Both the position numbers and the translations under genes were made by a program. DNA of 64,000 bases from Vagococcus teuberi (GTDB lineage: Bacteria; Bacillota; Bacilli; Lactobacillales; Vagococcaceae), in assembly GCF_001870205.1 (NCBI RefSeq), contig NZ_CP017267.1:236501-300500 (forward strand). The letters run 5' to 3'. Below are positions 10,140 to 12,215 of the stretch, in pieces (position 1 is the stretch's first letter; each line of letters begins with the position of its first letter). Under the pieces are notes generated by a model. It was given only the letters and a program-made list of their open reading frames with translations, was not told the DNA's origin and made no database searches.

Positions 10140-12215
10140 GTGGAAGATAAGAAAACTTTTTATATCACCACTCCGATTTATTACCCAAGTGGAAAATTAC
10201 ATATAGGAAGCTCATACACTACAATAGCCTGTGATGCAATGGCTCGTTATAAACGAATGAAAGGGTTTGATGTCTTTTATTTGACTGGTTTAGATGAACA
10301 TGGTCAAAAAATTGAACAAAAAGCCGAAGAATTAGGTGTAAAACCACAAGAATATGTGGATGACATGGCAATGGACGTTAAAAAGTTGTGGAAATTATTG
10401 GATATAGATTATACCAAATTTATCCGTACAACAGATTTAGATCATAAACAATCTGTTCAAAAGATTTTCCAGCGTTTATTAGACCAAGGAGATATTTATT
10501 TAGGCGAATATGAAGGTTGGTACTCAGTATCAGATGAAGAATATTTCACTGAAAATCAATTAGCTGAAGTCTTTAGAAATGAAGATGGAAAAGTTATTGG
10601 TGGATTAGCTCCGAGTGGCCATGAAGTAGAACTTGTTAAAGAACAAAGCTACTTCTTTAAAATGAGTAAGTATGCAGACCGTTTATTAGAATATTACGAA
10701 GAACACCCAGATTTTATCGAACCAGTTTCTCGTAAAAATGAAATGATTAATAACTTTATTAAACCAGGTTTAGAAGACTTAGCTGTTAGTCGCACATCTT
10801 TCAAATGGGGAATTCCTGTTGAAAGCGATCCAAAACATGTGGTCTATGTATGGATAGATGCGTTGTCAAACTATATTACAGCCTTAGGTTATGGTACAGA
10901 CGACGACAGCAACTTCCAAAAATACTGGCCAGCTGATGTTCATATGGTTGGTAAAGAAATCGTCCGTTTCCATACCATTTATTGGCCAATTATGTTAATG
11001 GCACTTGATTTGCCATTACCAAAACAAATTTTTGCTCATGGTTGGTTAGTGATGCAAGATGGCAAAATGTCTAAATCAAAAGGGAATGTGGTTTACCCTG
11101 AGATGTTAGTACGACGTTACGGATTAGATGCACTACGTTACTATTTAATGCGTGCAATTCCGTTTGGTTCAGATGGTGTGTTTACACCAGAAGATTTTGT
11201 TTCTCGTGTGAATTATGATTTAGCCAATGACTTAGGTAATTTATTAAATCGTACGGTTGCGATGATTAATAAATATTGTGATGGTGTGGTACCGAACTAT
11301 GCGTCTCAAGTAACAGATTTTGATAGTGAATTATCAACAACTGCTGCAGATGTGATCGGTAAATACAACAAAGCAATGGAAAAATTAGAGTTTAACATTG
11401 CGTTAAGTGAAGTATGGCGTCTAATTTCTCGTGCAAAATACATTGATGAGGAACATTGAGTTTTTGCGTTAAGTGAAGTATGGCGTCTAATTTCTCGTGC
11501 AAATAAATACATTGATGAGACTGAGCCGTGGAACTTAGCAAAAGATGAAGAAAAACAAACAGAATTAAATAGTGTTATGGTTCATTTAGCCGAAAGTTTA
11601 CGTATTTCTGCTATCTTATTGCAACCAATTATGACGCAAGCACCAAAAGAAATCTTTAGCCAATTAGGATTGGATGATGAAACAGTCTCTATGATTGATA
11701 TTCGTTTTGGAGAGTTCCCTTCTGGTACCAGAGTTGTCAGCAAAGGAACGCCTATTTTCCCACGTCTAGATGTTGAAGAAGAAGTAGCTTACATTAAAGA
11801 ACAGATGGCTCAAAGTATGAATCAACAGACAGAAGAAGAAGAATGGAAACCAGAAGATGTGGAGCTTGTTTCTGTTAAAGATAAAGAAGTAAAATTTGAA
11901 ACGTTTGATGAAGTTGAGTTAAAAGTTGCTGAAATTTTAGACTGTCAAAAAGTTAAAGGGGCAGATAAATTATTGCAATTTAGATTAGATGCTGGTGACA
12001 AAGGAAATCGCCAAATTTTATCAGGAATTGCAGAATTTTATCCTGAACCAATGGATTTAATTGGTAAAAAAGTAGTGATTGTCGCTAACTTGAAACCAAG
12101 AAAAATCCGTGGACATATCAGTCAAGGAATGATTTTATCAGCTGAAAATTCAGATGGAAAATTATATGTTGTTGAAGCACCAAAAGGAGCAGAAAACGGC
12201 AGTATCGTTGGATAG
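10140..12215 (+). pseudogene. metG: Methionyl-tRNA synthetase, interrupted by a 66-bp insertion with an in-frame TGA
   Basis: MetRS charges tRNA-Met and is essential. The first 439 codons (10140-11459) carry the class I signature P-S-G-K-L-H-I-G-S near residues 16-24, KMSKS at 309-313 and the start of the anticodon-binding helices. A 66-bp partial tandem duplication then ends the frame at TGA 11457-11459. The same frame continues to 12215 with the rest of the anticodon domain and a C-terminal EMAP-like tRNA-binding domain (I-L-S-G-I-A-E-F-Y ... R-K-I-R-G-H-I-S-Q-G-M). Removing 11401-11466 restores a normal protein of about 669 residues. No initiation site precedes the C-terminal part. An assembly or base-calling fault is likely, because the gene is essential. 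Confidence 0.8.
11398..11519 (+). repeat. Imperfect tandem duplication inside metG (period 66 bp)
   Basis: The sequence from 11398 to 11450 recurs at 11464-11519. The copies start TTGCGTTAAGTGAAGTATGG and end ACATTGATGAG; the first copy lacks 3 bp (GCAAAATAC against GCAAATAAATAC). A 13-bp linker containing TGA joins them. The unit is a multiple of three, so the reading frame is the same on both sides. Confidence 0.95.

Follow-up and report, generated by a model that had tools for sequence, protein, structure and literature searches.

The MetRS gene metG of the dairy bacterium Vagococcus teuberi is interrupted, in the deposited genome, by 66 bp that form an imperfect second copy of metG's own sequence, keep the reading frame and bring in a TGA. 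We regard this insertion as an assembly artefact left by contigs whose overlap was not merged, a reading to which we give a probability of about 0.95 (the case of a bad read being counted within it), and the living strain most likely has an ordinary, uninterrupted metG.

Results

An in-frame duplication splits metG

The window, that is the whole 64-kb stretch of DNA under analysis, contains two close direct repeats when the minimum length is set to 24 nt and the maximum distance to 400 bp: the pair in metG and a perfect tandem in an ABC exporter gene (Table 1). The metG repeat is far beyond chance. The sequence-only reading had described a 66-bp in-frame duplication with a TGA at 11457, and on re-examination the coordinates, the frame and the stop codon were all confirmed. 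Between the two exact arms, the tail of copy 1, from which three bases are missing close to the 3' end and which diverges after that, runs into a degraded lead-in of copy 2. An additional 15-nt match between the copies has a spacing of 69 because copy 1 is without those three bases. Arithmetic on the coordinates gives 669 codons for metG minus the insert.

The two parts of the gene divide the enzyme's domains between them. The 5' part holds the complete MetRS catalytic domain (Pfam PF09334, E 1.1e-114), and Pfam gave no match to an anticodon-binding domain in this piece. To the 3' part belong the remainder of the anticodon-binding domain and, at the C terminus, the tRNA-binding domain; its Pfam matches are PF01588 (E 3e-27) and a weak one to PF19303 (E 0.00015, 22.1 bits), which lies slightly below the cut-off of 23.5.

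Table 1. Parts of the interrupted metG and the join-like sites of the V. teuberi assembly. Positions are those of the window or, after a label, of the locus so labelled; arm and spacing are in nt.
Feature	Position	Strand	Arm/spacing	Remark
metG as deposited	10140..12215	+	40/66	start GTG 10140; 66-bp insert with TGA
5' part of metG	10140..11459	+		439 aa; ends at the TGA within the insert
Copy 1, 40-bp exact repeat	11398..11437	+		presumed left-contig end
metG joint between exact arms	11438..11463	+		26 bp, degraded
In-frame TGA	11457..11459	+		inside the degraded joint
Copy 2, 40-bp exact repeat	11464..11503	+		presumed right-contig start
Additional match between copies	11436-11450 / 11505-11519		15/69
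3' part of metG	11466..12215	+		same frame as 5' part
Tandem in ABC exporter gene	21279..21422	-	73/72	perfect 72-bp tandem; gene 20670-22460 (-)
Tandem in uncharacterised reading frame	L141:15442-15954		257/256	perfect 256-bp tandem; included in the count of seven
Histidine kinase site	L147:17114		41/47	frameshifts the gene
glnA site	L149:19085		27/57	stop codons into glnA (L149:18590-19984; chromosome near 1,207,085)
Site in presumed ABC-F-like gene	L150:19673		37/43	frameshifts the gene
C/T site	L207:18206-18431		41/185	encloses C/T garbage

Relatives carry an uninterrupted metG

In all 13 other Vagococcus genomes examined, the two parts of metG abut at the junction with no insert between them. 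When up to three mismatches were allowed, a 20-base piece of the repeat was found at two places in V. teuberi; none of 28 other genomes in the family had it more than once. The closest relative (G009), whose DNA is 97% and 96% identical over the two metG parts, has a plain single copy. Among the best 80 named metG matches listed, of which the nearest relative is Vagococcus vulneris, 79 are without the insert; the exception, L082, shows a 48-base offset that we read as an alignment-end effect, and its translation is without the repeated sequence. A search of a plasmid collection with metG returned 13 records at 64-77% identity. Among the genomes examined, the insert is unique to the V. teuberi assembly.

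Join-like repeats recur across the assembly

A survey for direct repeats with exact arms of at least 24 nt and a spacing of up to 400, with masked bases omitted and pairs clustered, covered 854,725 unmasked bases of V. teuberi, made up of 839.5 kb of the chromosome and the 15,225-base contig. It yielded 13 repeat clusters. Eight were chromosomal single pairs, of which seven look like joints (Table 1). The eighth, L215 (24/24), is T-rich and of low complexity and was excluded, as were five multi-pair clusters that look like natural repeats (L157 on the small contig, L199, two in L200, and L211). The repeats on the small contig (L157:2202-2327) have a period of about 42 bp and are possibly plasmid iterons.

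Several of the sister sites break genes. In glnA, the assembly's sole glutamine synthetase gene, an imperfect duplication of 57 bp brings in two in-frame stop codons. At L207, 41-bp exact arms enclose about 144 bases that are mostly C and T and include a run of 26 C, a stretch that is not plausible as chromosomal DNA; sequences of this kind, sought by the same criteria, were absent from the sampled parts of four relatives. At the histidine kinase site and at the site in the gene that we take to be ABC-F-like, an A-run is one A longer in one copy than in the other, a usual kind of PacBio error. The two perfect tandems could be real duplications. The one in the ABC exporter gene adds 24 codons, which presumably sit just before the Walker A motif; it is perhaps the same artefact, but it may also be genuine.

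None of the four relatives compared carries the insert at glnA, at L207, in the kinase gene or in the ABC-F-like gene, and the tandem at 21279 is absent from the three in which it was sought (G009, G012, G008). As controls for the survey we used four of the 13 other Vagococcus genomes (G008, G009, G010 and G012), which may differ from V. teuberi in how they were sequenced. A sample of 1,037,500 bases from these genomes held five repeat clusters, one of them a single pair that looks like a terminator. V. teuberi has seven join-like sites in its 839.5 kb of sampled chromosome; the four relatives together have one terminator-like single pair in 1,037.5 kb. In one control genome (G010), the locus L197:1259-3350 holds a CRISPR-like array of 36-bp repeats spaced by about 66 bp.

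Errors lie towards the joint at metG and some sister sites

Six of the seven sites (metG, glnA, L207, the ABC-F-like gene, the kinase gene and 21279) were aligned with a relative. At metG, both outer flanks match the relative closely, the errors of copy 1 concentrate at the joint, and the lead-in to copy 2 resembles the true upstream sequence in ragged form. Divergence towards the joint, with clean outer flanks, is clear at three of the six aligned sites (metG, glnA and L207), and the ABC-F-like site is consistent with it. The pattern is imperfect across the sites because the odd A-run of the kinase gene sits in copy 2 and not at the end of copy 1; the perfect tandem at 21279 shows no error between its copies.

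The published workflow included a contig-joining step

The published genome of V. teuberi DSM 21459T comprises a 2,169,064-bp chromosome and a 15-kb plasmid (PMC5270701). It was sequenced by PacBio RS II alone, no other sequencing being described, and the steps that followed, all in CLC, were read correction ('correct pacbio reads'), de novo assembly and finishing with 'join contigs'; the paper states neither the number nor the positions of the contigs joined (PMC5270701). The deposited chromosome has 2,169,060 bases, 4 bp off the published figure, and the second contig has 15,225; we infer that the deposited sequence is this published assembly. Its completeness is scored at 100 and its contamination at 0.15, and the assembly is therefore not broadly poor.

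Discussion

Among the possibilities raised by the sequence-only reading was that the assembly is wrong, and this is strongly supported by the sister sites in the assembly together with the PacBio and CLC 'join contigs' workflow. Contig overlaps left unmerged are a known source of false duplications in genome assemblies. At metG, two contigs, each ending inside the gene, would have overlapped by some tens of bases and would have been placed end to end with the overlap left uncollapsed. Their ends would carry uncorrected long-read errors, seen as the loss of bases and the divergent tail in copy 1 and as the divergent lead-in of copy 2, so that the overlap would have gone unrecognised, and the TGA would have come to lie in frame at the joint by chance. 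The metG site shares with such false duplications a short local copy at the joint, confinement to a single assembly, errors that increase towards the joint and the breaking of genes; nothing essential differs, and the metG joint merely happens to be in frame with a TGA.

The joint was probably made at the contig-join step or at the read-correction step. Within the artefact reading, it is possible, if rather doubtful, that the fault lies in a PacBio read that was chimeric or badly corrected, and not in a contig join. The workflow did include a step of read correction (PMC5270701), and the garbage at L207 could be the end of a bad read; the overlap-like form of metG, ragged on both sides of the joint, is a slightly better fit for contig ends. 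With either origin, the metG insertion is an artefact.

A biological origin has to account for the same observations. The sequence-only reading had also raised a mixed or reversible tandem duplication in the culture. In that case part of the culture would carry it, and the assembler would have taken the minor or a mixed form. Slippage between the 40-bp arms would remove exactly 66 bp and restore metG, and because the arms are exact and close, such a precise deletion is mechanically plausible; the genome also holds two perfect tandems. There is precedent in pneumococcus, where sequence duplications in reading frames of capsule genes are reported to cause phase variation (Waite 2001, 2003, as cited in PMC4022640). 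The capsule duplications are, like the one in metG, short, within a reading frame and in principle removable by slippage; metG differs from them in its degraded joint, in being an indispensable gene and in having sister sites with non-biological sequence. A further point against reversibility is the makeup of the copies. Reversible intragenic tandem duplications are expected to be clean and head-to-tail, with both copies identical, whereas at metG only 40 of the 66 bases are exact, after which three are lost and the sequence diverges. Nor does the 1.04-Mb sample of four relatives contain a comparable site, its one single pair being terminator-like. We found no support for a mixed or reversible duplication, which leaves unexplained the C/T garbage at a joint of similar form, the interruption of the sole glnA and the degraded metG joint, and we consider it very unlikely. 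A more elaborate version, in which metG and perhaps glnA would carry a metastable duplication, reversible by slippage, that lets some cells toggle translation as a bet-hedge for dormancy, is in our judgement highly improbable.

The insertion could also be a fixed, real mutation, tolerated by readthrough of the TGA, by assembly of a split protein or through another MetRS. In its favour, the frame is preserved and both halves of metG are otherwise intact, and the Salmonella allele metG630, a frameshift that cuts MetRS short near the anticodon-binding domain, was isolated as a high persister (PMC11004401). The high-persister alleles metG630 and metG-delta-ETIT, one a frameshift of 4 bases and the other a deletion of four residues (PMC11004401), lie, like the V. 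teuberi lesion, in or near the anticodon-binding part of MetRS. In V. teuberi, unlike in these alleles, MetRS would lack all residues past 439, and the 5' piece has no match to an anticodon-binding domain. The sequence-only reading had suggested that another MetRS gene might exist, and a genome search did not bear this out: the PF09334 profile, which detects a match in 14 of 14 control genomes, gives one strong match in V. teuberi and found no second MetRS in the assembly. Seven weaker matches to the same model are read, from the lengths of their frames, as LeuRS, IleRS, ValRS and CysRS. Suppression or recoding of the TGA was likewise considered and rejected. The genome has two release-factor genes, their open frames 367 and 352 aa long, and we read them as intact RF1 and RF2; a search with the tRNA-Sec model alone returned no tRNA-Sec above the gathering score; its four matches all fall below that score, as matches do in nine of the 14 control genomes. 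A re-start of translation was rejected as well, the earliest in-frame ATG, GTG or TTG past the TGA being the ATG at 11577, from which 212 aa would be made. With no second MetRS seen, release factors that look intact, no tRNA-Sec above the gathering score and a re-start only at 11577, a fixed real insertion would therefore be hard to explain, and the sole glnA would need equal luck. We regard a tolerated mutation as exceedingly improbable.

The unmerged overlap, or failing that a bad read, remains our account of the metG insertion, and its significance is mainly that of a caution. A genome that represents its species appears to hold several false joints, and the genes they break include metG and the sole glnA; pseudogene calls and analyses of essential genes based on it would therefore be wrong. 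Scaled up to the 2.17-Mb chromosome, the seven sites found in 839.5 kb would amount to about 18, a rough extrapolation from the sample in which two of the seven are possibly real. The metG insertion belongs to the deposited sequence and almost certainly not to the bacterium.
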